A stretch of DNA of 64,000 nt, taken from positions 62,001-126,000 of the forward strand of contig NZ_CP039292.1 of NCBI RefSeq assembly GCF_004798665.1, written 5' to 3'. This stretch comes from Actinomyces procaprae. Its GTDB lineage: Bacteria > Actinomycetota > Actinomycetes > Actinomycetales > Actinomycetaceae. Shown here one piece after another: positions 17,260 through 36,936 of this stretch. The translations under genes were made by a program, and so were the position numbers. The stretch's first letter is position 1. Every line of letters begins with the position of its first letter. The notes under the pieces were generated by a model. That model did not search any database. It saw nothing but the letters and a program-made list of their open reading frames with translations, and was not told the DNA's origin.

Positions 17260-17394
17260 CCCAGCTGTCACAGATTGCACCACTTTCGCCGGGACGCGCC
17301 GGGAACCCGGTCAACAGAACCGCATGATTTCAACGATTTGTGCTAGGTGGCTCCTGTCCGGGCAGGTAAAGTGGTGCAATCAGTGACAGCTGGG
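17260..17394. repeat. Intergenic inverted-repeat element, copy 1
   Basis: The 135-bp element has 27-nt terminal arms (17260-17286 and 17368-17394) with one mismatch, beginning CCCAGCTGTCAC and containing GATTGCACCACTTT. CCGCATGATT lies in the middle. Related copies are at 44954-45075 (inverted orientation) and 55318-55439. The rest of 17240-17816, upstream of the lanthipeptide precursors, holds a candidate regulatory motif and the direct repeat TAAGTCT-CA-TAAGTCT near 17677-17692, but no gene. Confidence 0.9.
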
Positions 17395-17575
17395 CGACGG
17401 TCACCGTGTCGAGCCGGCAGGCCCACCGGTCTCCTCACCCGGAGACACGCCGGCCGCCACATCCACAAGCACGACGAGCCGGTCCAGATGACCTGGCGGG
17501 GCTGCTAGAGGACACGCCCCGGCCAGACCTCACACCTGCAAACCGGAAGCGCCACATATGTGCACCCTCGCACCC

Positions 17576-17606
17576 AACCCGGGTGAGAAAGGCTCAGTGC
17601 TGCCGC
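17576..17606 (+). promoter_or_regulatory. Motif shared by lanA and second ABC-transporter leaders
   Basis: This 31-nt stretch contains TGAGAAAGGCTC and matches 30117-30147 at 24 of 31 positions. It lies 210 bp before the alpha-precursor start; the second copy lies 64 bp before the second ABC-transporter ATPase. It may bind the cluster regulator encoded at 32901-33569 or form part of a promoter; no consensus -35/-10 is evident to me. Confidence 0.5.
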
Positions 17607-17816
17607 ACCCCGTGGTGGAGCGGGCCCGGTCTCAGCATTCTGGATCAACTAGACGATGGTTGGCCCTGGCTCCTCCTTAAGTCTCATAAGTCTGAGCCGT
17701 TCTGCTGATGGGAAGCACCCCGGACGGCGAACACACTTGTCCCTGTCAGCAACGACAACCGGTGGGGAGCCCACAGCATCCGCACCACTCACACCCGACC
17801 CGAAAGGAACACTCAA

Positions 17817-17987
17817 ATGAACGCCAAGTTCACCTCCACCTCCACCGCCAAGAACGACCTCCTCGACGAGATCACCGAGCAGGACTACATCACCGCAAAC
17901 GGCGGCGTCTCCTGGCTGTCGCGAAAGCTCGGGAACCGCGGATTCTTCTGCACCCTCACCAAGGAGTGCCAGAGTATGTGCAACTAA
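17817..17987 (+). CDS. lanA1: Two-component lanthipeptide precursor, alpha peptide
   Basis: The 56-aa precursor has an acidic leader ending ITEQDYITANGG (double-glycine site, residues 29-30) and a 26-residue core starting VSWLSRKLGNRG and ending FFCTLTKECQSMCN. The CTLTxEC motif is the lipid II-binding ring signature of mersacidin, lacticin 3147 A1, haloduracin alpha and lichenicidin alpha. By analogy with haloduracin the rings would be Ser5-Cys15, Thr16-Cys21 and Thr18-Cys25 of the core. The N-terminal Cys pair of haloduracin alpha is absent here. A ribosome site AAAGGA lies 9 nt upstream. It is modified by a LanM in this locus and exported by LanT. Confidence 0.95.
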   Translation: MNAKFTSTSTAKNDLLDEITEQDYITANGGVSWLSRKLGNRGFFCTLTKECQSMCN

Positions 17988-18042
17988 TCGCCCTCGCACG
18001 ACAATCAACCCACCAGCAGCTACCGACCGAAAGGACACGACT

Positions 18043-18204
18043 ATGACCCATGAGAACCTGACCGGCACCTACACCGCCTCCGAGCTGGAGGAGCTGAATG
18101 ACATCAGCGCCTACGGCGGAACAACCCCCAGCTCCTGGCCCTGCGGCATTGGCATCACGACCACCATCTGCCCGACCGCAGTATGCACTAGCAAGTGCCG
18201 GTGA
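18043..18204 (+). CDS. lanA2: Two-component lanthipeptide precursor, beta peptide
   Basis: The 53-aa precursor has leader MTHENLTGTYTASELEEL... ending NDISAYGG (Gly25-Gly26) and a 27-residue core beginning TTPSSWPCGIGITTTIC and ending PTAVCTSKCR. The TT..WPC start and CPTxxCTSxC end match haloduracin beta and lichenicidin beta, the pore-forming partners of two-component lantibiotics. Four Cys and at least nine Ser/Thr allow four thioether rings. The ribosome site (ACCGAAAGGACAC) nearly copies that of the alpha gene 55 bp upstream, suggesting co-expression at similar levels. Haloduracin- and lichenicidin-type beta peptides are further trimmed by a separate protease; no such protease gene is visible in this window. 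Confidence 0.95.
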   Translation: MTHENLTGTYTASELEELNDISAYGGTTPSSWPCGIGITTTICPTAVCTSKCR

Positions 18205-18212
18205 CCAATCGC

Positions 18213-18255
18213 TGAGGGGAGGGAGGGAGTACTGCTTCCTCCCTCCCTCCCCTCA
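18213..18255 (+). terminator. Perfect 17-bp hairpin between precursors and lanM1
   Basis: Arms TGAGGGGAGGGAGGGAG (18213-18229) and the exact complement (18239-18255) have a 9-nt loop and are followed by a pyrimidine-rich tract CTTCTCCTCCTC. The position, 8 bp past lanA2 and 47 bp before lanM1, is that of an attenuator or RNA-stabilising hairpin that would keep precursor mRNA in excess over synthetase mRNA. Confidence 0.8.
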
Positions 18256-18302
18256 CTTCTCCTCCTCAGCACCTCCTCCTTGACGGAAAGAGACCTCCGC
18301 AC

Positions 18303-21218
18303 ATGACGACCCTGGACGCCACCGACCTCTTCCCAGAGCTCGACAGCATTCGCCTGAGCGACTACCTCGAGCGCATGAGCGAGGTCTCGCTCCCACCCTC
18401 CAACCCCGGCGACGACATCGGCCCGCTCACCCTTCCTGCCAGCCAGGAACGGACCCCTTTCCAGCACCTGTACGAGGCCGTGGAGGCCGCTACCTACCAC
18501 CCTGGGAAGGAGCGCACCCACCGAGGCGATCTCCTGGCGACCGCCAGGAGCACCCGCCGCCGCATCGTTGTCGACTCCCTAGACAGCATCCTCACCCGTC
18601 CCCTTGTCAGCCTTCTCCGGAAGGAGCGCGATCAGGGGGCGCTGCGGGCGGACACTCCGCACGACCGCTACCGCGAATTCACCAGGCGCCTGGCCTCCCG
18701 CCCGTCTCTCATTCGCTCACGGTTCCCCGTCGCCTGGACCATGCTGATGACCACCATGAGGAACACCGAAGCCTTCCTCACCGAGCTCGTCCGCCGCCTT
18801 GAGCTGGACTGGGACGAGATCACCAGCGAGCTCGGCATCCCACCCACCGATACTGTCACCAGCCTTCAGACGGGAGGCGACTGCCACCACCACGGCCGTC
18901 GCGTCACCACCGTCACCACGTCCAGCGGCGTCCGATTCGTCTACAAGCCCCGCTCGATGGACGGCGAATGGGCCTATGAGCAGATCGTCTCCCGCCTGGC
19001 ACCCATCATCGGCCACTACCGCTCGGCTCACGTCATCCGCAAAGAGGGCTATGGCTACGCCGAGTTCGTCGAGGCCACCGACGACGTCAGCCTGGTCGAT
19101 GCTGCTGGACAAACCGGTGGCCTGTCGGCCCTGTTCTACGTCCTGGGATGCAACGACCTGCATGCGGAGAACGTCCTGCTCACCGCGGACGGCCCCGTAC
19201 CCATCGACATGGAGACTATGCTGCACCCCTACGTCCCCAACCAGGACGGCGGTAGTGCAACAGCCCACCACGAGGCCAACCGACTACTCGCCCAGTCAGT
19301 ATTCGGCACAGGCGTGCTGCCCATGGTCGTGTCACGTCCTGAGGACCCCGACTCCTACTACGACGTCGGCCTCCTCGGCCCGCAGGAGCAGGTCAACGGC
19401 GGGGCGTTCCGCCACCACGCCATCACCAACCCCTTCACCGACGAGATGTCAGTAATCCTCACCAAAGAGGGGACGGAGCCGGAGCCAGAGCGCCATCGCG
19501 GCACTGACCTGGACGAGGTGCGCGCCTGCTCGGACGCCTTCGCCTCCGCCTTCAGTCGGACCTACCGCGCTCTTATGGGCAGCCGCGAGACGCTGCTCAA
19601 TGTCGTCGCCGACTGCTGCTCGGGCCTGCGCCTGCGCTACATCCACAACCCGACCCAGTTCTACGCCCAGATCCTGTCCACACTCACCTCCCCACTCGCC
19701 GCAGGCTCAGCCGGGCTCGCTCGGATGCTCGCCCTGCGGGTCGGGCTGACGGGCACCTCCCACACGCGGCTCATCGCCGAGGAGGTGAGCAGCCTCCTGG
19801 ACCAGGACATCCCCTACTTCACCACCGACACGAGCAGGCCCCATGTCCTCGACGCCGCCGGCGCACGAGCCCTCCTACCACTGGACCGGGCGCCGATTGA
19901 TACTGCGTTGGAACGGATCCGGGCACTGGACGAGACCGATCTGGCCCGCCAGCTGCGTCTCATCCGCTCGGCCTTCTGTGGAATCGTTCCCGACGAGTCC
20001 ATCGCCCCGACGGCCCGCCCGGCACTCGCCCCCCGCCCGGCGTCGTGGGCGCCGAGTGAGGACCGCATGACGCTCACCGACCTCGCGGCGAACCTAGGCG
20101 GACAGATCGTCGCTCGTATGCTCACCGACACCGACTCTCGCCACCCGATGACGTGGATCGGCCCCCTCGCCTCAGTGGAGACGACCCGCCCCTGGCCCCC
20201 CGGCGTACTGGGATACGACCTCTACACCGGCCGCCTGGGCACCGCCCTCGCCCTCGCCCGCGCAGGTCGCGCGCTCAGCGACACGGCCCTCACCCGCGCA
20301 GCCTCCCAGATCTTCGACACCACCATCGACGTGGTGGGAGATGATCCTGAGGCCGCCTCCCCGGTACGAGGAACCTACGCGGGCGCCGCGGGCGTGGCCT
20401 GGGCCCTGTGGGCGGCAGGACAGGTCCTGGAGCGCCCCGACTGGTGCCGCTCCAGCGGTGACCTCCTGCGCCACCTGTGGAGGAGCACCCGCCCCACCGA
20501 CCCGGCGGACGAGCTCGACACCATCAGCGGAGTCATCGCCTCCTGGCGCGTGAGCCAGATGCTCGGCGTCACGGAGCCCATAGTCGGCCACGACCTCGAC
20601 AAGGCCCTTGCCACCATCACGGACGGCAGCTGGAAGGACACCGAGGTCGCCCACCACTCCGGCTTCGCTCACGGCACAGCCGGAGTCCTCTACACCGTCG
20701 CACAGCACCCTCAGGCTCAGCGCTACATACCCACGCTCCTGGACCACCTGGCCACCTTCTGGGACGAGGACAGCCGTAACTGGTTTACCGCCTCGGACCG
20801 CAGTCACGTCAACCACGGCTGGTGCCACGGACGCGCCGGCGTGCTCCTCGGCCTCGCAGCCGCCCGGCTCACCCAGGGACTCACAGACGTCCACCGGAGC
20901 GAGCTGACAGGGCTGACAGCCGACATCGCCAACGACGGGGCGGCCTACAACCTCACCTACTGCCACGGCTCGCTGGGCGACTACGACGCCGCCCGCTGGC
21001 TCATCGACCACGGCGCATGCACAGATACCTCCGTCCTGACCCGCATGGAGGAGGTCATCACCCCGCAGGCCATCGCCCGGAAGAGTCGCGATCCGCACAG
21101 TCGCTACTCCCTCAGCGACGGCCTGATGATCGGGATCGCCGGCTCACTCCTCCACCTGGCGGAACGCATCGACCCCACCATCACAGTCTCCCCGACAACC
21201 CTGGAGGTCCACTCATGA
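18303..21218 (+). CDS. lanM1: Class II lanthipeptide synthetase LanM, first copy
   Basis: The 971-aa bifunctional enzyme dehydrates Ser/Thr in the precursor core and closes thioether rings. The dehydratase half shows GGDCHHHGRRV, the kinase Lys in VYKPRSM, NDLHAENVLL and the acidic IDMETMLHP, the residues needed for phosphorylation and elimination in CylM-type enzymes; RYIHNPTQFY is the later Arg/Thr motif. The LanC-like cyclase half has the zinc ligands Cys841 (GWCHGRAG) and Cys887-His888 (TYCHGSLG). All key residues appear intact. Length is typical (900-1,100). It follows the precursors directly and overlaps lanT by 4 bp (ATGA). Which precursor it modifies cannot be told from sequence. Confidence 0.95.
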   Translation: MTTLDATDLFPELDSIRLSDYLERMSEVSLPPSNPGDDIGPLTLPASQERTPFQHLYEAVEAATYHPGKERTHRGDLLATARSTRRRIVVDSLDSILTRPLVSLLRKERDQGALRADTPHDRYREFTRRLASRPSLIRSRFPVAWTMLMTTMRNTEAFLTELVRRLELDWDEITSELGIPPTDTVTSLQTGGDCHHHGRRVTTVTTSSGVRFVYKPRSMDGEWAYEQIVSRLAPIIGHYRSAHVIRKEGYGYAEFVEATDDVSLVDAAGQTGGLSALFYVLGCNDLHAENVLLTADGPVPIDMETMLHPYVPNQDGGSATAHHEANRLLAQSVFGTGVLPMVVSRPEDPDSYYDVGLLGPQEQVNGGAFRHHAITNPFTDEMSVILTKEGTEPEPERHRGTDLDEVRACSDAFASAFSRTYRALMGSRETLLNVVADCCSGLRLRYIHNPTQFYAQILSTLTSPLAAGSAGLARMLALRVGLTGTSHTRLIAEEVSSLLDQDIPYFTTDTSRPHVLDAAGARALLPLDRAPIDTALERIRALDETDLARQLRLIRSAFCGIVPDESIAPTARPALAPRPASWAPSEDRMTLTDLAANLGGQIVARMLTDTDSRHPMTWIGPLASVETTRPWPPGVLGYDLYTGRLGTALALARAGRALSDTALTRAASQIFDTTIDVVGDDPEAASPVRGTYAGAAGVAWALWAAGQVLERPDWCRSSGDLLRHLWRSTRPTDPADELDTISGVIASWRVSQMLGVTEPIVGHDLDKALATITDGSWKDTEVAHHSGFAHGTAGVLYTVAQHPQAQRYIPTLLDHLATFWDEDSRNWFTASDRSHVNHGWCHGRAGVLLGLAAARLTQGLTDVHRSELTGLTADIANDGAAYNLTYCHGSLGDYDAARWLIDHGACTDTSVLTRMEEVITPQAIARKSRDPHSRYSLSDGLMIGIAGSLLHLAERIDPTITVSPTTLEVHS

Positions 21219-23344
21219 GGCACCGTGTCCCCGTGCGCACCCAGGTCTCGCAGACGGAGTGCGGTCTCGCCTGCTGCCTGGCCGTCCTGGAGCACCTGGG
21301 GTGCTACCGCTCCTTCACCGACGCCCGTCGCTGCCTGCGACCAGGCCGGTCTGGGCTGTCCATCACCGAGCTGCAGGACTACCTGCGTGACAACGGCTGC
21401 AAGGTCCGCTCCTACCGGGCCGGGACCGGACGGCTGACCGAGCTGCCGCTACCGGCGATCGTCTTCTGGGAGAAGTCCCACTTCGTCGTCCTGGAGCACC
21501 TCGGCCGCCATCGGGTCAAGCTCATGGACCCCGCCCTGGGACGCAGGACGCTCTCACGCGCCACCTTTGACGAGAACTACTCCGGCGTGATCCTCACAGC
21601 CACGCGCGGGCCCGGCTTCCAGCCCCGACGCCGCCAGCCGCTGCACCAGTGGCGGCTGCCCGGACTCACCTGGGACCTCGATCTGGCCAGCACGGGAGTC
21701 ATCGCCGCGACGACGGTACTGACCTACCTCGTCACCCTCGTCATGCCGATGATCACGGCCCACCTCGTCGACCATGTGACCGGCGCACCCGCAGGCGCCG
21801 GGACATCGGCCCGTACCCTCCTGCTCGCCACAGCAGCCACCGTGGTGCTGTACATCGTCGTGGAGTACGTGCGCACCCTGGCTACCTCACGCGTGGTCAG
21901 ACGCCTGGGAGCCGGACTCATGCAGACCTCTTTCGGGCACCTGTTGCGCCTACCCCTGTCCTACTTCGCCACCCGCGTGCCCGGCGAGCTCATGCAACGC
22001 CTCGCCGGCGTCAACTACCTGCGCGACACCTTGTCCAGCCAGCTGGTGTCTTCCCTGTTCGACCTGGGAACAGCCATCGTCGTCCTCGGCTACATCTGGG
22101 TCGTCTCACCTCAGCTCGGCCTGGCCGCCACGGTGATCCTCGTCCTTCTCCTCGCCTTCCTCCTCCTGACCCGCCAGCCCCTCAGTCGGGCCATCGACGA
22201 GGAGATCACCGCGCTCATGGAGGCCCAGGGGGTGCAGTACGACGCGGTCTCCTCCATCGCCCAGATCAAGATCGGCGGCTACACCACGACAATGGAGAGC
22301 AAGTGGCGCAAGGAGTACGACCGCTCCCTCACCGCCCTCCACAGCAGGATGCGCTGGCAGAACGGGATCGTGGGCTCGGTCAGCGCCGCGTTTCAGCTCT
22401 TCGGCCCCTTCACGCTGCTGCTCTACGGCACGACGCTTCCCTCGACCTCCCTGGGGCAGGCTGTGGCCGTCTCCTCCCTGGCGGCCACGATGCTCGCCGG
22501 CGTCTCAGGCCTGCTGGGCACCTACACCGACTTCATCACCTGCTCCAACCACCTTGACCGCCTCGAGGACATCATCGCCACCGCGCCCGAGCCGACGGGC
22601 GGTGCGATCAGCGTCATCCGTGACGGCCGCATCGAGCTGGAGAACTTGTCCTTCCGCTACGCCAACGAGCCCGTACCTGTGCTCGACGGTGTCAGCCTGA
22701 CGATTCGCGAGGGAGAGATGACCGCCCTGGTGGGCCAGTCGGGCTCCGGCAAGACCACTCTGGCAAAGGTCCTATGCAGCCTCTACGCCCCCTCCTCAGG
22801 CCAGGTCCGCATCGGAGGCCACTTGCTTGAGGACTACGACCGGGACGCGCTGCGTCGGCACATCGGTTACGTCCCGCAGGACGTCACCCTCCACAACGGC
22901 ACCCTCATGGAGAACCTGGCCCTCGGCAGCGACATGCCCGAGGAGGAGATCGTCCGGCACTGCCGCTCCCTGGGCTTCCTCGACTTCATCGACAGCCTCC
23001 CGATGGGCTACTCCACCCAGGTGTCCGACCTCGGTGCGAACTTCTCCGGCGGACAGCGTCAGCGCCTCGCTATCGCCCGGGCACTGCTGCGCCGGCCCCG
23101 AATCATGGTGCTGGACGAGGCGACCAGCGCCCTGGACCGGCTGAACGAGCACCGCGTCAACAAGGTCCTCCGCGACCTGGGATGCACACGAGTCGTTATC
23201 GCCCACCGCCTGGAGACAGTGCGCTCCGCCGACAGCATCTACGTCATGGACTCCGGCCGAGTCGTCGAGCACGGCACCCACCAGAGCCTCATCCAGGCCA
23301 ACTCCACCTACGCCGCCCTCTACAAGAAAGGTGCTGCAGCATGA
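21215..23344 (+). CDS. lanT: LanT: C39 peptidase-containing ABC exporter
   Basis: The 709-aa protein cleaves the leader after the double Gly and exports the peptides. The frame is open upstream, but the start at 21215 is chosen because it gives the C39 domain beginning MRHRVPVRTQ, overlaps lanM1 by ATGA and has GGAGG 7 nt ahead. Catalytic Cys16 (SQTECGLACC), the oxyanion Gln10, His in KSHFVVLEH and Asp in LMDPALG are present. Six membrane segments follow (about 150-440). The ABC domain has GQSGSGKTT, FSGGQRQRLAIARA and MVLDEATSALD. Both precursors end their leaders in GG, so one LanT can serve both. It overlaps lanM2 by ATGA. Confidence 0.95.
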   Translation: MRHRVPVRTQVSQTECGLACCLAVLEHLGCYRSFTDARRCLRPGRSGLSITELQDYLRDNGCKVRSYRAGTGRLTELPLPAIVFWEKSHFVVLEHLGRHRVKLMDPALGRRTLSRATFDENYSGVILTATRGPGFQPRRRQPLHQWRLPGLTWDLDLASTGVIAATTVLTYLVTLVMPMITAHLVDHVTGAPAGAGTSARTLLLATAATVVLYIVVEYVRTLATSRVVRRLGAGLMQTSFGHLLRLPLSYFATRVPGELMQRLAGVNYLRDTLSSQLVSSLFDLGTAIVVLGYIWVVSPQLGLAATVILVLLLAFLLLTRQPLSRAIDEEITALMEAQGVQYDAVSSIAQIKIGGYTTTMESKWRKEYDRSLTALHSRMRWQNGIVGSVSAAFQLFGPFTLLLYGTTLPSTSLGQAVAVSSLAATMLAGVSGLLGTYTDFITCSNHLDRLEDIIATAPEPTGGAISVIRDGRIELENLSFRYANEPVPVLDGVSLTIREGEMTALVGQSGSGKTTLAKVLCSLYAPSSGQVRIGGHLLEDYDRDALRRHIGYVPQDVTLHNGTLMENLALGSDMPEEEIVRHCRSLGFLDFIDSLPMGYSTQVSDLGANFSGGQRQRLAIARALLRRPRIMVLDEATSALDRLNEHRVNKVLRDLGCTRVVIAHRLETVRSADSIYVMDSGRVVEHGTHQSLIQANSTYAALYKKGAAA

Positions 23345-26115
23345 CTGCCCCCGCCCTGCCCACGACACAGGCCCTGACCTCCGCCTTCGATGCCTTCCAC
23401 CCCTTCCTCGAGGCCGTCACGGCGCAGTCCCTCCAGCAGACCGAGGCCGCCGCGTTGCCCGCCCACCTCACGCACAGCGTCCACGACAAGATCCTTGAGG
23501 AGGCCTCCCGGATCTGGTTCCGTGCCCTCCTTGAAGAGTTTCACGAGTTCCGTCAGGACGCGGGCCTCCCCATGCAGGCCGACTCCCAGCAGGCCCTGCG
23601 GCGCTACGCCGCCCACCTGGGCAGGCCGGAGGTCGTCGCAGGCCTCCGGCTACGCTGGCCAACAGCCGACCAGCTCCTGCGTACTCGCGCCTCGATGCAC
23701 GTCGCCAACGCCTGGCAGCTGGCCCAGGCCTGGCAGGAGGACCGCCAGCACCTGGTCTCCTGCGGACTCATTCCGCCAGACTTCGACCCGGAGACCGTCA
23801 CCTTCGGCAAGGGCGACAGCCACAACGGCGGCCAGTCCGTCACGGTCCTGTCCTGCGCCAGTGGCGAGCGCATCCTGTTCAAGCCGCACAGCGCTGACGG
23901 AGACCTCCTGCTGGCAGACCTTCTCGGGCTCGTGAGCCGATACTGCGGGGAGGACCTGACCGGTTGCGCTCCCCGTACCCTTGCCGGCTCGTGGGGCAGC
24001 TGGCAGGAGTTCGTCCCCGCTCGGGAGCCCGCAACCCCCGGTGAGGTCAGTCAGTACTTCTACCGCTTCGGACTCCTGGCCGCCCTCCTGACCGCTATCG
24101 GCGCTGGGGACCTGCACCACGAGAATGTCATCGTGCGTGGACCCAGCCCGTGCGTCATCGACACAGAGACACTCCTTCAGCCCGGCACCGTGGGTCCTTC
24201 CAACCGTCTTGGGGACATCCTCCTCGAGGCGGGCGAAAGGTCTCCGGGCTCCACGCTCATGCTCCCCATGCGGGTGAGGGAAGGAGCCTTCGACATCCTG
24301 CTGTGCGCGCTGGGGGTCCCCTGGGAGCAGGTCTCCCGAAAGTCGACCTTCACCCTCCTCGACGACGGCACGGACGCCGTGCGGATGGCCCGCTCCGAGG
24401 TGCAGATCGACCATGAGGCCAACGTCGTGCGCCTCTACGGCGAGGTTGTCGACCCCGTCGACCACATCGACCGCGTCACTGCCGGATACCTGAGGATGCA
24501 CGCAGCACTGAGGGAGTGCCAGGAGGAGGTCGTCTCGCTTTTGCAGCAGTCCGGCTCAGGGACGTTCCGTGTCGTGCTGCGCCCTACGGAGACCTACACG
24601 AAGCTCCTGGACGCCTCCGTCCAGCTGAGCGCGCTCCGCGACGCCCGGCAGCGACAGGGGATCCTCTCCGTCCTGCGCGACCAGGACTACAACGACGACG
24701 GGGCCGTCGGGGCGCGAGAGCGGAAAGACCTTGCCAACTTCGACGTCCCGGCCTTCCAGGTCCGGGCCGACGGAACACGGCTGCTCCACCGTGGCCAGCC
24801 GGTATCTCGCCCCTACTTCGCCGCGAGCCCCGTCGCAGCGGCGACCACCTCGCTCCGGCGCTTCTGCCAGCGCGACCCGCTCTTCCACCACCAGGTTCTC
24901 GAGACCTCGCTCGGCGAGCTCGCTGCGGGGCAAGGACGTCCCTACCCCGCCCCTCTCGTCGAGGGAGCGCTGGAGGAAGACCCGAACCGCTGCGCGAATG
25001 GCGTCCTGAGGCTCCTGGAGCGCACGGCGCTGCGGGGTCTGACCGATGAGGGTCTGGGCGCCTCCTGGCTGTCCCACCTCGGCCACGACGGCCTGGAGAC
25101 CTTCGAGCTCGACCGGGTCATGTCGTTCCACGACCTCGGTGGTCTCGTCGCCACTCTGGTCTCCAGGCACCCCGGCTCGCCCCTGGCACGGCAGGCGCGA
25201 GCCGCACTGAGCACCCGGCTGGCGATCCAGGACGAGTCGGCTGGCACCCCGGTCCTGTCGGTGTTTGCCGGTCCGATGCACGGCTGGCTTCCAGATGACG
25301 ACATGGCTGCCGTCCCACCTGGCCCCCACGTGCTCGCCCGCCTGTGCCCACGGCCTGAGGACATCGATCTCATCACGGGCCTGTCTGGCAGCATCCTCGC
25401 TGCGGCGAGCCAGCCCGACCAGGTGGGTGACCGCCTCGTGGCCGCCCTCAGCCGGCTGGAGGAACTGCTGCCCGAGGTCCGCTGGGAACGGGACTGGTAC
25501 AATCTCGCCCACGGGGAGGTAGGGGCCCTGTGGGCCCAGGTCCGCGCACGCCACGCCCTCGGCCTTGCGGTTGACGAGCCGCTGACCAAGATCCTCCGCG
25601 GCCTGCAAGGCAGCCTGGAGGACACCCGGCTGGGCACGTCGTGGTGCGCCGGGGCCTCGGGCGGATTGATCGTTCTGTCCGACCTGCACCGGATGGGCCT
25701 TGAAGCGCCGCCCTCGACCGCCGGGGCCCTCGCCGCCCGGATCAGCAGTCAGGCTCTGGGAGAGGACCCCGTTGACCTGTCCGTGTGCCACGGGGTGAGC
25801 GGCTGCATACAGGCTCTTCTACTGGCCTCAGAGACGGGACTCCTTCCCGAGGGCATGACCCAGGCCGGCTTATTGTGGACCGGGGCCGTAAGCCGGGCCC
25901 GTTCCCGCGGTACCCAGACCGGCGCGGTCGGCCGCACGACCGTCCAGGGCTACATGCTGGGGTGGGGCGGCCTCCTGGACACCATGCACCGGCTCACACG
26001 GGGCCCCGGCACCTTTGACGCAGTGAGCCTGCGCCCCCGCCTGCCCGCCCCGCAGCATCATCTGATCGGAGGACCCGTTAGCCCGATGTCGGCCGTCACC
26101 CCGAAAACGGCCTGA
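23341..26115 (+). CDS. lanM2: Class II lanthipeptide synthetase LanM, second copy
   Basis: With ATG at 23341 (overlapping the lanT stop, AAAGG upstream) the enzyme is 924 aa. Dehydratase motifs are GKGDSHNGGQSV, ILFKPHS, GAGDLHHENVIV, CVIDTETLLQPG and VVLRPTETYTKLL. The cyclase zinc ligands are Cys769 (TSWCAGASG) and Cys816-His817 (SVCHGVSG), with a NLAHGEVG helix before them. It is clearly diverged from lanM1 (for example WCAG instead of WCHG), as expected when each synthetase serves one precursor of a two-component pair. It ends the tightly coupled M1-T-M2 block; 72 bp follow before the transporter genes. Confidence 0.95.
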   Translation: MTAPALPTTQALTSAFDAFHPFLEAVTAQSLQQTEAAALPAHLTHSVHDKILEEASRIWFRALLEEFHEFRQDAGLPMQADSQQALRRYAAHLGRPEVVAGLRLRWPTADQLLRTRASMHVANAWQLAQAWQEDRQHLVSCGLIPPDFDPETVTFGKGDSHNGGQSVTVLSCASGERILFKPHSADGDLLLADLLGLVSRYCGEDLTGCAPRTLAGSWGSWQEFVPAREPATPGEVSQYFYRFGLLAALLTAIGAGDLHHENVIVRGPSPCVIDTETLLQPGTVGPSNRLGDILLEAGERSPGSTLMLPMRVREGAFDILLCALGVPWEQVSRKSTFTLLDDGTDAVRMARSEVQIDHEANVVRLYGEVVDPVDHIDRVTAGYLRMHAALRECQEEVVSLLQQSGSGTFRVVLRPTETYTKLLDASVQLSALRDARQRQGILSVLRDQDYNDDGAVGARERKDLANFDVPAFQVRADGTRLLHRGQPVSRPYFAASPVAAATTSLRRFCQRDPLFHHQVLETSLGELAAGQGRPYPAPLVEGALEEDPNRCANGVLRLLERTALRGLTDEGLGASWLSHLGHDGLETFELDRVMSFHDLGGLVATLVSRHPGSPLARQARAALSTRLAIQDESAGTPVLSVFAGPMHGWLPDDDMAAVPPGPHVLARLCPRPEDIDLITGLSGSILAAASQPDQVGDRLVAALSRLEELLPEVRWERDWYNLAHGEVGALWAQVRARHALGLAVDEPLTKILRGLQGSLEDTRLGTSWCAGASGGLIVLSDLHRMGLEAPPSTAGALAARISSQALGEDPVDLSVCHGVSGCIQALLLASETGLLPEGMTQAGLLWTGAVSRARSRGTQTGAVGRTTVQGYMLGWGGLLDTMHRLTRGPGTFDAVSLRPRLPAPQHHLIGGPVSPMSAVTPKTA

Positions 26116-26187
26116 CAAACACACAACAACTGACTGTCCAAAAAACACCCATCACTCCAAACCGTTCTCAACCATGGGAGTATCACC

Positions 26188-26889
26188 ATGTCCATCATCC
26201 TGACTGACGTGTGCCAGGCCTATTCGGGCTTCGAGTTGCGCGACGTGTCCTTCGAGGTCTCCACCGGCGAGATCGTCGGCTTCCTGGGGCCCAACGGCTC
26301 GGGCAAGTCCACCACGTTGCGCATCCTGCTGGGCCTGGAGCGCCCCGTTCGGGGCACCGCCCTCATCGAGGGGACCCCTTACGCGAAGCTGCCTCAGCCG
26401 ATGCGCACCATCGGCTCCATCCTCGACGCCCAGTGGATCGCTGGGGGCCAGACGGTGACGCAGTACCTGAACTGGCTGGCCATCGCCGGGGGCCTGGACC
26501 GCTCCCGCATCCCCCTGCTGCTAGAGCAGGTCGACCTGGCCTACGCCGCCAAACGACGTGTCTCGCGCCTATCCCTGGGCATGCGCCAGCGCCTGGGCCT
26601 GGCCGGAGCGCTGCTGGGCGACCCGCGCTACCTCGTTCTGGACGAGCCGCTCAACGGACTGGACCCCGAGGGCATCCGCTGGTTCCGTGACCTGCTACGA
26701 GAGCTACGAGACCAGGGCCGGGGCATCCTGTTGTCCTCCCACATCCTGACCGAGGTCTCCGCCGTAGCCGACCGCGTCGTCATGATCTCCAACGGACGCG
26801 TCACCGGCAGTGGCAGCCTGAGCGACTTCGAGGCGGAAGGCAGCCTGGAAGACGCCTTCTTCAAGCACCTCGCCCCCAAGGAGCGGTGA
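26188..26889 (+). CDS. lanF: LanF-like ABC transporter ATPase (self-protection)
   Basis: The 233-aa ATPase has Walker A GPNGSGKST, Q-loop region ILDAQWI, signature LSLGMRQRLGLAGA and Walker B YLVLDEPLNGLDPEG, and resembles bacitracin/lantibiotic immunity ATPases (LanF/BcrA). It would drive removal of the lantibiotic from the producer membrane. GGGAG precedes the ATG. Its stop overlaps a GTG start of the permease. The location straight after lanM2 supports the immunity role; an export role for another compound is less likely. Confidence 0.9.
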   Translation: MSIILTDVCQAYSGFELRDVSFEVSTGEIVGFLGPNGSGKSTTLRILLGLERPVRGTALIEGTPYAKLPQPMRTIGSILDAQWIAGGQTVTQYLNWLAIAGGLDRSRIPLLLEQVDLAYAAKRRVSRLSLGMRQRLGLAGALLGDPRYLVLDEPLNGLDPEGIRWFRDLLRELRDQGRGILLSSHILTEVSAVADRVVMISNGRVTGSGSLSDFEAEGSLEDAFFKHLAPKER

Positions 26890-28631
26890 TAGCGATGCGA
26901 CTGCTCATCAGCGAGCTCTACAAGCTCTACGTCTACCGGTGGCCCGCCCTGCTGCTGACAGGAGCACTGGCCGCCTGCGCCCTCCTGGACATCTACCTCG
27001 CCCTGGCGTACTCCTCCTCCGCCGGCTCCTATGTGAGCATGGCACTGAGCTTTAACGAGCTTGTCTGCCGCCTGGCGTGGTTCACTCTGCCCGTCCTGGT
27101 CCTGGCCGGTGACGCGCGTGATGGCATGCTGGCCAGTGTCGTCCTGGTCCGTCCGCGTCCGCGCGCGATCCTGGCCGCCAAGCTCGTCTCCTCCCTTGTC
27201 GCCGCCCAGGTCAGCGCCCTGGGGTCCCTGGTCCTCATCGCGGCCTTCATGCCGCTGGGAGGCTGGCCCGACGCCGCCACCGCCCTGGCCGCCGCCGCCC
27301 CGATGGCCGCTCGCTTGCTGGTGCTGCCGCCGCTGGCAGTGTGCTTCGGTTTTGGCGTGGCCGTCCTGGCCAACTTGAGGTCACTGCCGTGGGTGGCGAC
27401 GGGACTGGTCCTCTGGAGCCAGGTGATCGAGAAGCTCCTCTTCACCGTCGTGGGCAACCTCGTGCCTCCGTCCGTCGGAGCGGCCCTGGCCCCGTATTCC
27501 GCCGCTGTCATGTGGTTGTACGGCGGCTGGGGCGAGATGGGCCTGCCTGCCTTTGACACCTGGGGCTTCCTGCCGCTGGCGGGCCTGGCCGCCCTCACCT
27601 GTGCGGCCGCCGCCTTCCTCCTCATGCGTACCGCCGACCCGGCCGGACGGCCCTGGGGCCTGCACACCGTCGCTCTGACCGCCGAGGCCGCACCCGCCAT
27701 GAGCGCCACCCCGACGACGACCGCCTCCGCGCATACCGCCACGGCCGCAGCAACCCCGACGCGTCAGGCGGCCGACGGCGACGCCGCTCGCCCTCACCTG
27801 GTGGGAGCGCCTGCCCCCACTACCGGGGCCAGGTCCCGCAGGGGTGTGTTGGCTGATGTCCTGGCCTGGCTTTGGGCCAGTATGAGCGCCCACGGAGCGT
27901 TGCGGCGCACGCTGCTCCTGACCCTGTTCACCGCCGTCGCGAACGCCGCCATCACTGCCGGCGTGGTGGTCATCTTCGAGATCTCCCTGACCTCCTCCGG
28001 TGCCCTCAGTGACGCCGAGTCCGCGTTCGTGGCCGTCAGCGGCGGGTGGGGCATGCTCTGCCTGCCGTTGACCGTCCTGACCGGCTCGTGGACCTACCTG
28101 CGTCTCATCCAAACCCGCGAGCTGGCCCTGGTCTACACGGCTCTTCCGCGTCGCAGCGCCGTCATCACCGCCTGCGCGGTCCACGCCGGCCTCCAGGCGG
28201 CGGTGGTCACCCTGGTGTCCATCGCCGCGGGTCTTGCGGTCCTGAGCGCTGCCACCAGCGTCAGCGCCGTCCTGGCCACTGCCGGTCTTACCCGGATGTT
28301 GGTCGCCGCCCCGCTGGGCGCCGTCCTCGCCCAGCTCAGCGTCATCGGAGCCGCCGTCCTCATCCGCCGGCCGATCCCCGCCCTGGCGGGCGTGGCCGGC
28401 TGGCTCCTGCTGGCTGAGCCCCTCCTCCAGAGCAGCAGCCCGGTCTTGGAGCGAGTAGTCGGTAGACGCACCATCAGCGCTCTGGTTGACAACCTCGTCA
28501 GTCCCAGCTCCTTCGCCGACGAGACCCTGAGCACCACTTCGGCCCTTATGTGGCTCATCGTGCTTGCCGCCGTCCTCGTCACCACGGCGATCGTCGTCGA
28601 GCGACGGCGCCCAGGAGTCATCGGGAACTGA
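26886..28631 (+). CDS. Fused LanE-LanG-like ABC permease
   Basis: The 581-aa polytopic protein falls into two permease-like halves: residues about 1-260 (LLISELYKLYVYRW...) and about 325-581 (LADVLAWLWASMSAHGALRR...). A Ala/Thr/Pro-rich linker joins them. LanFEG systems normally use two separate ~250-aa permeases, so this looks like LanE and LanG joined in one chain. The start may be GTG 26886 (overlapping the ATPase stop) or ATG 26895. It pairs with the ATPase upstream for immunity to the peptides made here. Confidence 0.8.
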   Translation: MIAMRLLISELYKLYVYRWPALLLTGALAACALLDIYLALAYSSSAGSYVSMALSFNELVCRLAWFTLPVLVLAGDARDGMLASVVLVRPRPRAILAAKLVSSLVAAQVSALGSLVLIAAFMPLGGWPDAATALAAAAPMAARLLVLPPLAVCFGFGVAVLANLRSLPWVATGLVLWSQVIEKLLFTVVGNLVPPSVGAALAPYSAAVMWLYGGWGEMGLPAFDTWGFLPLAGLAALTCAAAAFLLMRTADPAGRPWGLHTVALTAEAAPAMSATPTTTASAHTATAAATPTRQAADGDAARPHLVGAPAPTTGARSRRGVLADVLAWLWASMSAHGALRRTLLLTLFTAVANAAITAGVVVIFEISLTSSGALSDAESAFVAVSGGWGMLCLPLTVLTGSWTYLRLIQTRELALVYTALPRRSAVITACAVHAGLQAAVVTLVSIAAGLAVLSAATSVSAVLATAGLTRMLVAAPLGAVLAQLSVIGAAVLIRRPIPALAGVAGWLLLAEPLLQSSSPVLERVVGRRTISALVDNLVSPSSFADETLSTTSALMWLIVLAAVLVTTAIVVERRRPGVIGN

Positions 28632-28663
28632 CCTGGACGGAGCACCATCCGCGCACCCTTTCA

Positions 28664-28706
28664 GGGTGGCCCTGGTCGGCGACAGCCTCACCGGCCAGGG
28701 CCACCC
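28664..28706 (+). terminator. Hairpin after the lanthipeptide operon
   Basis: Perfect 12-bp arms GGGTGGCCCTGG and CCAGGGCCACCC, extendable inward, lie about 30 bp beyond the permease stop and are followed by CTCTGT. This is a likely end of the lanA1-to-permease transcript, though the T-run is poor. From 28707 to 28912 nothing else is recognisable. Confidence 0.6.
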
Positions 28707-28912
28707 CTCTGTCCGCACGGCTGGCTCCAGCTGCAGGCGGCCTCTCTGCTTGCCCCGGGCGACCAGTTCATCATCACCACGGAGTACGCCGTTCATGCCG
28801 GTGCCGGTGACCGACCTCTGCGTCCTGGCGGACAGGGCCCAGGTTCTTGATCGCTGCAGGCTTGATAACCACCCGCGGCCCTTCGGCAGTCACTAGGCCA
28901 CCAGGTTTTACC

Positions 28913-30116: not shown

Positions 30117-30147
30117 AACCCTGATGAGAAAGGCTCGCTGAACCCGC
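30117..30147 (+). promoter_or_regulatory. Second copy of the lan leader motif
   Basis: The stretch contains TGAGAAAGGCTC and matches 17576-17606 at 24 of 31 positions. It lies 64 bp upstream of the ABC ATPase start, so the transporter and the lanthipeptide operon may share a regulator. Confidence 0.5.
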
Positions 30148-31158: not shown

Positions 31159-31160
31159 CC

Positions 31161-32568: not shown

Positions 32569-32759
32569 GATGGTGCGATGCGACATATCCAATTCGGGTA
32601 TGTGAATGATGCGGGCGAAATAAGGGCTAATGATTCGCTCGGTGAGGCGGTTACATGGATGGGAGATGGGGGTTCGGCGGGTGCTGCTGCGGCGGGAGTT
32701 GTCAGCCCCAGGAGCGATACGGACATGGCGATGGCAGAGAGGGTGCGAAGGGAACGCAT
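32559..32759 (-). CDS. Small secreted peptide with two C-terminal Cys
   Basis: The 66-aa frame starts ATG at 32759 with AGGAAG 9 nt upstream. Residues 1-25 form a signal peptide (MRSLRTL, hydrophobic AIAMSVSLLGL, then TTPAAAAPA). The predicted mature peptide of about 40 residues ends FTYPNWICRIAPSYC, allowing one disulfide. A strong terminator follows. It is encoded on the same strand as the regulator and kinase genes, with about 140 bp between. A signal for that kinase or a small accessory peptide are possible roles; I know no family for it. Confidence 0.55.
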   Translation of the reverse strand: MRSLRTLSAIAMSVSLLGLTTPAAAAPAEPPSPIHVTASPSESLALISPASFTYPNWICRIAPSYC

Positions 32760-32900
32760 GTGCGAGGACTTCCTGACGGTTGTGGATCCGGTGGGATAGC
32801 CGCATCTTGCCCCACACAGCTGTGTGGGCTGTTCATCATTGAGTCCCCATGCGATTCCTCCTTTTGGGGGAACCCGACGAGACATGATGAGGAGGGGAGA

Positions 32901-33569
32901 CTAGCCGCCGATGCCCCGCTTGTACGCCTCGGTGACGATCTCCAGTCGGCTACCCACCCCCATCTTGCGCATAAGCGATGAGACGTGAGTTTTGACGGTG
33001 GTCTCCGCAACGTTCATCTGGCGTGCAATCTGGCGGTTGCTGCGTGCCTGGCACAGAAGCCGAAGCACTTCCCGCTCTCGTCCCGATAGATCGAGCTCCG
33101 CGGTGGAACTGGTACTGGGGCGCTGGCCACGCACGTAGCGGTCCAAGACGCGGCTGGTGGGTCCGGGCGAGAGGACCTTACCGCCCCCGTGGACGGTCCG
33201 AATTGCCGTTGCGATCTCGGCGGCAGGTGTGCTCTTGAGAAGGAAGCCCGAAGCGCCGGCGGCGATTCCGCCATCGAGAAAAGTATCGTCATCGAAGGTG
33301 GTCAATAGGAGTACCCGGGTCTTGCCCCCGGCTGCGAGGATACGTGAGGTGGCCTTGATGCCGTCCAGCTCCGGCATCTGGACGTCCATGAGCACGACAT
33401 CCACCATGCGTTCATGAACCAGATCGACCGCCTCGATGCCATTCGTGGCGGTGGCGATGATCTCGATGCCGTCCTCCTGGCCGAGGATCGCGGATAGTGT
33501 CTCGCGCACGATGGCGTCATCGTCCACGATGGCGACGCGGATCGGACTGGGCTGGGTGCTTGGGTTCAC
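32901..33569 (-). CDS. NarL-family response regulator of the lanthipeptide region
   Basis: The 222-aa protein has receiver-domain residues VDDDA, phospho-Asp in VLMDVQMPELDG, LTTFDDD and Lys in LLKSTP, and a LuxR-type DNA-binding end (LSGREREVLRLLCQARSNRQ, VAETTVKTHVSSLMRKMG). Start is GTG at 33569, overlapping the stop of the second kinase copy (GTGA), so translation is coupled. It most likely controls the ABC transporters or lanthipeptide operon near it. It resembles the regulator at 7968-8660 in plan, but the sequences differ. Confidence 0.93.
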   Translation of the reverse strand: MNPSTQPSPIRVAIVDDDAIVRETLSAILGQEDGIEIIATATNGIEAVDLVHERMVDVVLMDVQMPELDGIKATSRILAAGGKTRVLLLTTFDDDTFLDGGIAAGASGFLLKSTPAAEIATAIRTVHGGGKVLSPGPTSRVLDRYVRGQRPSTSSTAELDLSGREREVLRLLCQARSNRQIARQMNVAETTVKTHVSSLMRKMGVGSRLEIVTEAYKRGIGG

Positions 33570-34701
33570 GGTTTGTCCTTAGCGTTGTTGGGTGTGAGGG
33601 GGAGGGTGGTGTGGAGGATCCATTGGTGGTTGGTGTGTTTGGTGGTGGTGGTTCCTCCGAGGGCGTGGGTGCGTTCTTGGATGCCGAGGATGCCGAGTTT
33701 GGATGAGGTGGCGGGGGTTGTGTGTCGGGTGTCGGACAGGGGGTTGATGGCGTGGAGTTCGGCGGTGGTGTCGGTGATGTCTAGTTGGATGGTGCACTGG
33801 GCGTCGGGGGCGGCGTACTTGATCATGTTGGCGACGCATTCGTCCAGGATGCGGGTCAGGGTGGTGGTCAGGGTGGGGGTTAGCCGGGTGGGGTCTCCTT
33901 GGTGGGTGACGGTGGCGCGCAGGCCGGCTGACTGGAGGTTGTGGCGGGCTTGGGCGAGGGTGGTGGCTAGGTCGGGTGTGGGGGTGCGGGGTCTAGGGGG
34001 GTGTTGGTGTCTTGTCTTAGGAGGCGCAGCATGGTGCGCAGGTCGAGGACTGATTGGTGGCCGGTGGTGATGATGTCGTCTAGGGCGGTGTTGATCTGGT
34101 TGGCGTGGTTGGGGGTGTGGAGGTGGGTTTGTGCTTGTTGGGCGCGTAGGACGATTTGGGTGTTGGCGCGGGCGAGGGTGTCGTGGAGCTCGCGGGCTAT
34201 GAGGGCGCGCTGATCGCGCAGGGCCTGGGCGTGGGCGGCCTGGGCCCGGGAAACGTTGGCGTCCGCAAGCCGCAGAGCCGAGGCGATACCCAGACAAAGG
34301 ACGAGCCACAACAGTTGGGTTGGTAGAGAGTAGTGCATGTCGTGACCCGCGTGCCAGGCCAGGAGGTTGCCGGCCACCATGGCCACCACCATCACAACAG
34401 CCTGCAGATAGCCACCCCGACGGATAAAGACACAGATTGCCGCGGTAGTGGCTATAACGGTTCCGGTGAACTGGTTGCTGGCTGTCACATGTACAGCGCT
34501 TAGTGCCAGGATGATGGTGGCGGTCCAAGGGTTGCGGGGGATCAGCAGCAGCGCCCACGGCACCACCAGACCCACCGCGTCAGCGAGAGTGAACCTCTGG
34601 AGCAGCACCGGCAACGCAGAGACAGCCAGACTGAGCGCTGTTAGCAACCAAAGTCGCCAATGCGTGCGCGACCAGTTCCGTGTGCGACCCCACCGATCCA
34701 T
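33566..34701 (-). pseudogene. Second sensor-kinase copy, frameshifted in a G run
   Basis: From ATG 34701 (MDRWGRTRNWSRTHW...) this copy encodes membrane segments and the phospho-acceptor region (ARELHDTLARANTQ), but then loses frame at a run of five Gs (33979-33985 area) where the first copy has six. The HATPase half (PDLATTLAQARHNLQ...ECVANMIKYAAPDAQ...GILGIQERTHALGG) continues in the other frame to 33566, where it overlaps the regulator start. With one more G it would be an intact kinase of about 378 aa. No clear ribosome site precedes ATG 34701, so it may be translated only as the tail of copy 1. Confidence 0.75.
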
Positions 34702-35438
34702 GTTTCGGTGAGCGTCCGATGTGTGATGTCTAGGCTCGTCTTCGTTGTTGGGTGTGAGGGGGAGGGTGGTGTGGAGGATCCATTGGTGGTTGGTGTGTTT
34801 GGTGGTGGTGGTTCCTCCGAGGGCGTGGGTGCGTTCTTGGATGCCGAGGATGCCGAGTTTGGATGAGGTGGCGGGGGTTGTGTGTCGGGTGTCGGACAGG
34901 GGGTTGATGGCGTGGAGTTCGGCGGTGGTGTCGGTGATGTCTAGTTGGATGGTGCACTGGGCGTCGGGGGCGGCGTACTTGATCATGTTGGCGACGCATT
35001 CGTCCAGGATGCGGGTCAGGGTGGTGGTCAGGGTGGGGGTTAGCCGGGTGGGGTCTCCTTGGTGGGTGACGGTGGCGCGCAGGCCGGCTGACTGGAGGTT
35101 GTGGCGGGCTTGGGCGAGGGTGGTGGCTAGGTCGGGTGTGGGGGGTGCGGGGTCTAGGGGGGTGTTGGTGTCTTGTCTTAGGAGGCGCAGCATGGTGCGC
35201 AGGTCGAGGACTGATTGGTGGCCGGTGGTGATGATGTCGTCTAGGGCGGTGTTGATCTGGTTGGCGTGGTTGGGGGTGTGGAGGTGGGTTTGTGCTTGTT
35301 GGGCGCGTAGGACGATTTGGGTGTTGGCGCGGGCGAGGGTGTCGTGGAGCTCGCGGGCTATGAGGGCGCGCTGATCGCGCAGGGCCTGGGCGTGGGCGGC
35401 CTGGGCCCGGGAAACGTTGGCGTCCGCAAGCCGCAGAG
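33583..35438. repeat. Direct duplication of about 695 bp within the kinase genes
   Basis: Segments 33583-34277 and 34743-35438 appear identical by eye except for one G (695 versus 696 bp). The adjoining membrane-domain sequences are patchily similar, with blocks of identity (for example around 34510-34620 and 35670-35780) separated by diverged blocks. This pattern suggests an older duplication homogenised by gene conversion. Confidence 0.9.
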
Positions 35439-35889
35439 GTGCGGCGATACCAATACAGATTACAATCCACAACGCCTGGCTGATGAACAGGTCATCCATC
35501 TTCGTTCCCGCGTGCCAGGCCAGGAGGTTGCCGGCCATCATGGCCACCACCATCACAACAGCCTGCAGATAGCCACCCCGACGGAAGAGGGCGTATGTGG
35601 CGAAGCACCCGGCCATCAGCAATCCGGGGCCTCTAGCGTCTACCAGCCCATGAGCCGTACCCGCTGCCAGGATGATGGTGGCGGTCCAAGGGTTGCGGGG
35701 GATCAGCAGCAGCGCCCACGGCACCACCAGACCCACCGCGTCAGCGAGAGTGAACCTCTGGAGCAGCACCGGCAACGCAGAGAGAGCCAGGCTGAAGGCC
35801 GTGAAGACGCTGAGTTCACGGCGGGCGCGCCACGCAGCACGAAGTCGCCTCGGCGCGACGTTGAGTGCTGGGTGGGGCAGGGCGAACAT
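33967..35889 (-). CDS. Tandem fused sensor histidine kinase (copy 1 plus start of copy 2)
   Basis: The start at ATG 35889 (GAAAGG 8 nt upstream) is preferred to an in-frame GTG at 35913. The 640-aa product contains a full HisKA_3 kinase: five or six membrane segments, ARELHDTLARANTQ with the phospho-His, and HATPase motifs DECVANMIKYAAPDAQ and GILGIQERTHALGG. It reads through with no stop into a second copy (linker NNEDEPRHHTSDAHRN) and ends after the second phospho-acceptor region because of the G-run frameshift. Thus one chain carries two sensor/His domains and one ATPase domain. It is divergent from the ABC transporter at 36040. Confidence 0.8.
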   Translation of the reverse strand: MFALPHPALNVAPRRLRAAWRARRELSVFTAFSLALSALPVLLQRFTLADAVGLVVPWALLLIPRNPWTATIILAAGTAHGLVDARGPGLLMAGCFATYALFRRGGYLQAVVMVVAMMAGNLLAWHAGTKMDDLFISQALWIVICIGIAAPLRLADANVSRAQAAHAQALRDQRALIARELHDTLARANTQIVLRAQQAQTHLHTPNHANQINTALDDIITTGHQSVLDLRTMLRLLRQDTNTPLDPAPPTPDLATTLAQARHNLQSAGLRATVTHQGDPTRLTPTLTTTLTRILDECVANMIKYAAPDAQCTIQLDITDTTAELHAINPLSDTRHTTPATSSKLGILGIQERTHALGGTTTTKHTNHQWILHTTLPLTPNNEDEPRHHTSDAHRNMDRWGRTRNWSRTHWRLWLLTALSLAVSALPVLLQRFTLADAVGLVVPWALLLIPRNPWTATIILALSAVHVTASNQFTGTVIATTAAICVFIRRGGYLQAVVMVVAMVAGNLLAWHAGHDMHYSLPTQLLWLVLCLGIASALRLADANVSRAQAAHAQALRDQRALIARELHDTLARANTQIVLRAQQAQTHLHTPNHANQINTALDDIITTGHQSVLDLRTMLRLLRQDTNTPLDPAPPHPT

Positions 35890-36039
35890 GGGCGGCCTTT
35901 CAAGACTGTTCACAGACTAGCCCACATCATGAGCCTCCTACCAAGGTAGGACAGGTCGTGGCGGGAAGCCGGAGCACTCACGTATCCCTGCGATGGCATC
36001 CTCGGACTGTCCGAAGGATCGCCTGGAGAGGAACGTGTT

Positions 36040-36936
36040 GTGCAGCCGGTGCTTGCTCGTGGCGTGTGTCACTCATATGCGGGACGCCAGGTGCTGCGGG
36101 ATGTGGATCTGGTGGTGGAACGGGGGTCGTTCCACGGAGTTGTAGGTCCTACTGGTGCAGGTAAGACGACGCTGGTGGAGATCATCCAGGGCGCGTGTCG
36201 TGCCCAGGAGGGCAGTGTGGAGCTGCTGGGGCGGGCGCCGTTGCCGCGCGATCCGCGTCTGCTGGCGCGGGTTGGAATTCAGCCGCAGGCCACGGCCTTC
36301 TTCGCGCGCGCCACCGTGTGGGAGCACCTGTCGACTGTTGCCGCGATCTTCGGTGCCTCTGCCGCGCGTGCGGAGCAGCTCATTGAGAACATGGGCCTTG
36401 GGCATGTGCGCAACTCGCGTGTGGAGCGGGTGTCTCGTGGTGAGCGGCAGAAACTGGCGGTGGCTTCGGCGATGGTGCATCGTCCGGAGGTACTGTTCTT
36501 GGATGAGCCGACGGCGGCTCTGGACGCGGCGGCCCGTCATGATTTGGTGAGCATGCTGGTGTCGGCGCGTGAGGATGGCACGACGGTGGTCTACACGGCT
36601 CACTCCTTGGAAGAGGCCGAGCGCCTGTGCGACGTGATCACCATCCTTGATGGTGGCCGGGTGGTGGCCACGGACTCTCCGTCTGCTCTGGTTGCCGGTG
36701 TGGGTGGTGGTGCCTCGGTGCTGCTGCCCGGCGCGGTGCCGTACCTGGATGCGGTGACCGGTCTGGATGCGGTGACGGCTGCGACCGTGAGTGCAGACGG
36801 GCTGGTGGCTCACGTGCGTGATGTGGGCGAGGCGTTTGCGGCTCTCGGTGCGGCGGGTGTGCCGACCACGGGCGCGCAGGTGCATGGCCCGACCCTGGAG
36901 GACGCGTTTATGGAGCTCACGGGAAAGGAGCGCTAG
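36040..36936 (+). CDS. ABC transporter ATPase, third transporter
   Basis: The 298-aa ATPase starts at GTG 36040 with GGAGAGG ahead. Walker A is GPTGAGKTT and Walker B VLFLDEPTAALDAAA, with the switch His in YTAHSLEE. The signature is VSRGERQKLAVASA, with Arg in place of the usual second Ser/Gly position of LSGGQ. A C-terminal extension of about 75 residues is of the DrrA type. It is divergent from the kinase gene with a shared 150-bp promoter region and is followed 2 bp later by its permease. It is a likely target of the adjacent two-component system. Confidence 0.88.
   Translation: MQPVLARGVCHSYAGRQVLRDVDLVVERGSFHGVVGPTGAGKTTLVEIIQGACRAQEGSVELLGRAPLPRDPRLLARVGIQPQATAFFARATVWEHLSTVAAIFGASAARAEQLIENMGLGHVRNSRVERVSRGERQKLAVASAMVHRPEVLFLDEPTAALDAAARHDLVSMLVSAREDGTTVVYTAHSLEEAERLCDVITILDGGRVVATDSPSALVAGVGGGASVLLPGAVPYLDAVTGLDAVTAATVSADGLVAHVRDVGEAFAALGAAGVPTTGAQVHGPTLEDAFMELTGKER

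Follow-up and report, generated by a model that had tools for sequence, protein, structure and literature searches.

Lacticin 3147 (pMRC01, Lactococcus lactis) is a two-component lantibiotic with established synergy, where LtnM1 serves the alpha peptide and LtnM2 the beta peptide. Haloduracin, from Bacillus, has a beta peptide with a WPC start and an alpha peptide with an N-terminal Cys. The division of labour between alpha, which binds lipid II, and beta, which forms the pore, is described in the available parts of PMC1858699 and PMC7268733. For lichenicidin, also from Bacillus, the accessible part of PMC9863751 gives an alpha peptide with an N-terminal Cys and places a mersacidin-like site for lipid II in its rings C and D. 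The lacticin 3147 family has a dedicated LanM for each peptide; in the Roseocin family, type 1 contains a single promiscuous LanM and type 3 two similar LanMs (available sections of PMC10027976).

Among Actinobacteria, a lacticin-like pair has been characterised from Streptomyces rimosus, birimositide (PMC7268733), and families with lichenicidin-like alpha peptides are described in the accessible part of the same paper. Two-component clusters with two LanMs were earlier proposed in Streptomyces, and in S. viridochromogenes DSM 40736, which is the strain of our locus L054, two LanM genes flank the transporter (PMC3951391, part of the text). A LanB/LanC cluster is reported for Actinomyces sp. 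oral taxon 848 in the part available of PMC3091789. In the accessible portions, PMC8549736 contains lantibiotic terms only in its reference list and PMC4573289 does not mention Actinomyces. A literature search, with most subscription papers outside its reach, found, partly by title and abstract, no paper on the pair studied here or on its counterparts in Actinomyces sp. 432 and A. procaprae.

The locus is located in a window of 64,000 nucleotides (the whole stretch of DNA that was analysed), within a 3.6-Mb single-contig genome. Judging from the sequences, family matches, gene order, enzyme phylogeny and conservation, it is very probably a two-component class II lantibiotic cluster of lacticin 3147 type.

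Precursor peptides and cluster genes

The operon is compact, lies on one strand and comprises seven genes:
17817..17987, + strand: alpha precursor (LanA1), 56 aa, leader 1-30 ending in GG, core 17907-17984; PF14867 and NF000539; homologues P0002-P0004
18043..18204, + strand: beta precursor (LanA2), 53 aa, leader 1-26 ending in GG, core 18121-18201; NF038161; homologues P0005 and P0006
18303..21218, + strand: LanM1, class II lanthipeptide synthetase, 971 aa; TIGR03897 (418.5 bits), DUF4135 and LANC_like; groups with LtnM1 of pMRC01
21215..23344, + strand: LanT, C39 peptidase and ABC exporter, 709 aa; PF03412, PF00664 and PF00005
23341..26115, + strand: LanM2, divergent class II synthetase, 924 aa; DUF4135 (230.8 bits) and LANC_like (46.5); groups with LtnM2 of pMRC01
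26188..26889, + strand: LanF-like ABC ATPase, probable immunity; PF00005
26886..28631, + strand: membrane protein, putative fused LanE/LanG permease, 581 aa; counterpart conserved in Actinomyces sp. 432 (L018)

Four-base overlaps join LanM1 to LanT, LanT to LanM2 and the ATPase to the membrane protein. The preliminary description had placed both precursor frames at 17817..18204, where they are indeed present. The alpha precursor is formed by the leader MNAKFTSTSTAKNDLLDEITEQDYITANGG and the core VSWLSRKLGNRGFFCTLTKECQSMCN, and the beta precursor by the leader MTHENLTGTYTASELEELNDISAYGG and the core TTPSSWPCGIGITTTICPTAVCTSKCR. The features ascribed to them read as claimed: CTLTKEC and LGNRG in alpha, WPC and CPTAVCTSKC in beta, a GG end in both leaders and an alpha core lacking an N-terminal Cys. 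Profile (HMM) searches of both peptides, which the same description had proposed, identified alpha with PF14867 (E 3.2e-11, 43.2 bits, cut-off 27) and NF000539 (E 1.2e-12, 48.1 bits, cut-off 29) and beta with NF038161 (LchA2/BrtA2; E 7.5e-14, 51.9 bits, cut-off 26), the latter peptide having no match in Pfam. Each match is well over its curated cut-off and beyond chance. The middle of beta had been called unusual, which did not hold: Streptomyces gossypii (CITAATISIC) and S. alkaliterrae (CITVATVTIC) have the same eight-residue spacing between Cys residues. P0006, a 65% identical homologue, has kept two residues of the beta core, Thr 13 and Cys 17. The sole match of beta in the PDB, midkine (E 1.3), was taken as chance.

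In LanM1, residues C841, C887 and H888 are invariant across 6 aligned LanM1-type proteins. LanM2 reached 286.9 bits against the general LanM model TIGR03897, under the cut-off of 304, and for its counterpart on pMRC01 the annotation goes no further than DUF4135 protein. The ATPase and the membrane protein are probably an immunity ABC transporter: the best NCBIfam match of the former is the lantibiotic-protection ATPase TIGR03740 (179.1 bits, under the cut-off of 309.75), whereas the latter, whose hydrophobic segments fall into two blocks (about 20-251 and 342-575), matched nothing in Pfam or NCBIfam. A second cluster of this kind in the genome was discarded, the LanM1 search of the whole genome having matched only LanM1 and LanM2 of the present one.

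By analogy with described systems, we infer an enzyme-peptide pairing, a ring pattern, a target, synergy, immunity and regulation as follows. LanM1 would dehydrate and cyclise the alpha precursor and LanM2 the beta precursor, since their counterparts in lacticin 3147 are so assigned; LanT would then cleave both behind the double glycine and export them. Mature alpha, with predicted rings S5-C15, T16-C21 and T18-C25, would bind lipid II through its mersacidin-like CTLTKEC region, and beta, with predicted rings S5-C8, T13-C17, T19-C22 and T23-C26, would dock on the alpha/lipid II complex and open pores in neighbouring Gram-positive cells. The calculated monoisotopic mass of the core is 3007.43 Da for alpha (2953.40, 2935.39 and 2917.38 after loss of 3-5 waters) and 2783.31 Da for beta (2711.27 to 2603.21 after loss of 4-10), with a further +0.98 where an N-terminal Dhb turns into 2-oxobutyryl. 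LanF and the fused permease would protect the producer as an ABC transporter, and a nearby two-component system would probably control expression.

Gene order, enzyme phylogeny and relatives

The alpha/beta two-component nature of the pair, already proposed in the preliminary description, is borne out by the family matches, the paired LanMs and LanT. Its assignment to the lacticin 3147/birimositide type comes from the order alpha-beta-LanM1-LanT-LanM2, which is that of pMRC01, and from the grouping of each LanM with its counterpart, LtnM1 or LtnM2. Lacticin 3147 shares CTLTxEC in alpha and CPT..CT..C in beta. Differences are the CSTN start (ring A) of its alpha, missing in the window alpha, LtnJ, with no such gene in the window by tblastn, and the enzymes, with identities of 26.4% for LanM1 (82% covered) and 23.8% for LanM2.

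A quick tree built from 77 LanM rows gave two groups, M1 with 39 rows and M2 with 38, both at 100% SH-aLRT, and each holds one window enzyme and one pMRC01 enzyme (LtnM1 side and LtnM2 side). Within each group the Actinomyces pair forms a separate, deep-lying branch of this tree, for which the program warned of long branches meeting, Actinomyces rows among them. The tree was built without L060, the repeat loci L019, L020, L023 and L024 and two extra single LanMs. A more careful tree comprises a hand-picked subset of 25 LanM1 rows, and HalM1/HalM2 and LicM1/LicM2 are absent from both trees. In the careful tree a 100/100 branch sets five rows, labelled lichenicidin-like from their alpha peptides, apart from the Actinomyces pair and 18 rows of lacticin type; the branch separating the Actinomyces pair from the 18 lacticin-type rows has only 54/5. 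The Actinomyces cluster may represent a third deep lineage of the lacticin 3147 family, which is rare in its bacterial family.

Haloduracin and lichenicidin had been named as the closest kinds, which would make the locus a pair of that type where the alpha N-terminus alone changed. They share with the window the alpha lipid II motif and two LanMs. The beta start TTPSSWPC resembles that of haloduracin beta. Also in its favour, the beta model is named LchA2/BrtA2, the sole PDB match of alpha is lichenicidin VK21 A1 (E 0.00086) and the best LanM1 tree places the Actinomyces LanM1s beside the lichenicidin-like rows, weakly (the 54/5 branch). However, neither system is the best fit and this reading is unlikely: the gene order is that of lacticin and weakens them as closest kin, the LanMs pair with LtnM1 and LtnM2, and the 100/100 branch stands between LanM1 and the five lichenicidin-like rows of a tree where the haloduracin and lichenicidin enzymes themselves are absent. 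The lichenicidin-like relatives differ in gene order and apparently in LanM1 group, and the feature of their alpha peptides, an N-terminal Cys roughly 14 residues ahead of the CTxT Cys, is absent in the window alpha. The Roseocin family differs as well, the two LanMs of the window being dissimilar and in separate groups.

The gene order typical of the lacticin 3147 type was compared across named genomes. LanM1 alone as query gave no relative, and a LanM1 alignment gave 243, from which 80 were kept; the layouts and the alpha table drew on 34 of these (L028-L061). Frames for M1-like, LanT and M2-like proteins were identified in 32 of the 34 loci, with LanT between the two enzymes in 30, including L037, L039, L040 and L041, where a second LanT lies ahead of a more distant LanM2. 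Exceptions are L057 and L058, with the order M1-M2-T (these two lichenicidin-like actinobacterial loci run alpha-M1-beta-M2-T), and L060 and L061, with no M1/M2 pair seen in the layout.

A motif scan of 91 loci (L018-L108), which counts four genomes twice and misses two Williamsia pairs, identified alpha in 40 and beta in 40: both peptides in 39, alpha only in 1, beta only in 1 and neither in 50. The missed pairs are those of L045 and L056, among these 50, which hold both peptides by eye. This co-occurrence, which includes lacticin 3147 itself (L108) with its proven synergy, makes it very improbable that a mersacidin-like alpha and a separate beta are two independent single-component lantibiotics sharing one operon without synergy, even if such a view would agree with two LanMs in the cluster and with the existence of single mersacidin-like peptides carrying CTxTxEC.

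Some loci present other peptide arrangements. The Williamsia alphas (L045:9062-9340 and L056:8649-9341) read CTLTKESQNNCQ, with Ser for the second Cys of the lipid II motif, so that one ring should be missing. L026:12557-12984 contains a tandem pair of alpha-type peptides, with one beta-like peptide in the locus. In L061 (1119-1736 and 5101-5340), from a Propionibacteriaceae MAG, a very short alpha-like peptide (GGLSSGYLCSITKECQKICWLW) lacks Ser at -10, and the beta-like peptide sits beyond LanM, on the far side.

The earlier suggestion that an actinobacterial pair with these cores may be undescribed applies to the exact pair only; actinobacterial pairs are published (PMC7268733), and the alpha homologues of Actinomyces sp. 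432 and A. procaprae are already labelled 'plantaricin C family lantibiotic' at NCBI. Novelty is limited, with birimositide published, the same enzyme types in 32/34 loci and a near-identical cluster in Actinomyces sp. 432. Distinctive here is the alpha without N-terminal Cys, of modest interest as a natural peptide lacking ring A.

An alpha peptide predicted to lack ring A

The alpha table comprises 41 peptides picked by the CTxTxE pattern and misses alphas not fitting it, such as the very short one of L061. A Cys within 25 residues before the CTxT Cys was identified in 37 of the 41, exactly 18 residues before it in 30. The four lacking it are those of the window, A. procaprae, Actinomyces sp. 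432 and S. alkaliterrae. As the window core has no N-terminal Cys, three rings are predicted and no ring A. Ser or Thr at -10 from the CTxT Cys is present in all 41, which supports the predicted ring S5-C15 with S5 as the putative donor of ring B; the L061 alpha, outside the pattern, lacks it. S. alkaliterrae and S. gossypii group together at 100%, and as the alpha of the latter keeps the N-terminal Cys, the loss in S. alkaliterrae is a separate one. For the Actinomyces alphas, the sequence tables would be compatible with loss of the Cys or with its early absence alike.

None of the three Actinomyces alphas has the Ser at -12, which we take to be the D-Ala site in lacticin alpha; it is missing as well from the alphas in L057, L058 and L027 and from one of the two in L026. 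In the window this is consistent with the lack of any LtnJ match (tblastn, nothing at E <= 1) and of PF00296 (LanJC-type) proteins in the genome, and D-Ala tailoring of alpha by these two reductase types was rejected on the same results. Across 39 loci, LtnJ was found by tblastn (E <= 1e-10) in pMRC01 and L047-L053, all 8 from Bacillota, and neither in L060 nor in any of the 30 actinobacterial loci; its absence is therefore usual in Actinobacteria. The birimositide cluster, compared by its published description, differs in having a luciferase-like monooxygenase proposed as LanJC (PMC7268733), with no PF00296 match in the present genome. Neither the N-terminal Cys, common as it is, nor a LanJ reductase is treated here as defining for lacticin 3147-type lantibiotics.

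The Actinomyces alpha could tentatively be regarded, at somewhat less than even chances, as a naturally minimal alpha of three rings, devoid of D-Ala and of any N-terminal ring or disulfide, where the C-terminal mersacidin-like site alone would bind lipid II and beta would still be recruited; the separate loss in S. alkaliterrae would mean that ring A is dispensable. Lichenicidin alpha appears to have two potential sites for lipid II, one at the N-terminus and one at the C-terminus (PMC9863751, available part). The window alpha keeps only the C-terminal one and, as a natural alpha lacking ring A, would offer a clean test of this debated point. Residues called essential in lacticin alpha include L21, E24, N14, F6, S7, W12, W18 and W28 (accessible part of PMC3918158). 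In our own alignment L21, E24 and N14 are kept, in contrast to F6, S7, W12, W18 and W28, and the partner contacts are therefore expected to differ from those of lacticin.

Actinomyces relatives and surroundings of the cluster

The block 17593-28741 is found with 90% DNA identity in a genome of the same genus, Actinomyces sp. 432 (G036, locus L018), where LanM1 is 86% and LanM2 92% identical. The alphas of Actinomyces sp. 432 and of the A. procaprae record P0002, a comparison that covers alpha alone in the latter, are 79% and 82% identical to that of the window and likewise have no N-terminal Cys. L018 differs from the window by small core changes, such as FFPWLSRKLGNTGYV and CPTAACSSKC. Against L018, beta presented 8 synonymous and 3 non-synonymous changes (pN/pS 0.12), alpha 6 and 12 (0.56) and LanM1 207 and 163 (0.27). 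From these sequences beta looks constrained and alpha less so, the counts being small and from one genome pair. The excess of non-synonymous changes in alpha, together with a broken kinase frame adjoining the cluster, would fit a decaying cluster whose alpha lost its N-terminal ring through disuse. Such decay is highly unlikely, given that all seven cluster genes are open, LanM1 is conserved and the ring-less alpha recurs in three Actinomyces sequences, each retaining Ser at -10, the C-terminal Cys residues and GG.

LanM1 relatives at E <= 1e-60 were identified in 4 of 213 genomes of the bacterial family, own genome included. NF038161 matches (E <= 0.001) were present in 5 of the 213, 4 of them over the cut-off, and in 4/396 and 6/394 genomes of the order and class samples, counts that include the own genome and come from overlapping samples. 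L022 (G096; 24.1 bits, below the cut-off) and L025 (G913; 27.5 bits, with a TGA inside) present NF038161 matches and none for the cluster proteins of the window.

The pair of precursors is followed by a stem-loop, and the cluster by regulators:
18213..18255, + strand: 17-bp stem-loop between beta and LanM1, -38 kcal/mol, z -5.1; matching stem-loop in L018, z -4.3
32671..36208, - strand: response regulator and tandem histidine kinases; Response_reg/GerE, HisKA_3

Positions 17300-18400 were scanned for sigma-70 promoter and T-run terminator patterns and none was identified. Because the T-run pattern is absent, we only infer a role for the stem-loop, possibly as read-through attenuator or mRNA end, which may allow production of the peptides to exceed that of the enzymes. 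The block 32671-36208 comes after the cluster in L018 too, with 89% DNA identity, and these regulators probably control the cluster.

The gap between cluster and regulators (28741-32671) is 3.9 kb and contains an ABC transporter pair (30211-31943); in L018 it is 1.3 kb. At 33566-35913 (- strand) two near-identical histidine kinase copies lie in tandem, the first running into the second in one frame that breaks within the second copy, and the counterpart region of L018 is one frame of 781 codons. Upstream of the cluster, 15301-16230 matches an IS4/5-type transposase (DUF4096, frame residues 11-67 only) and is probably a broken copy. Downstream, 40032-41209 matches L018:375-1546 with 80% identity; the latter lies upstream of the L018 cluster, on the opposite side, which suggests rearrangement or movement.
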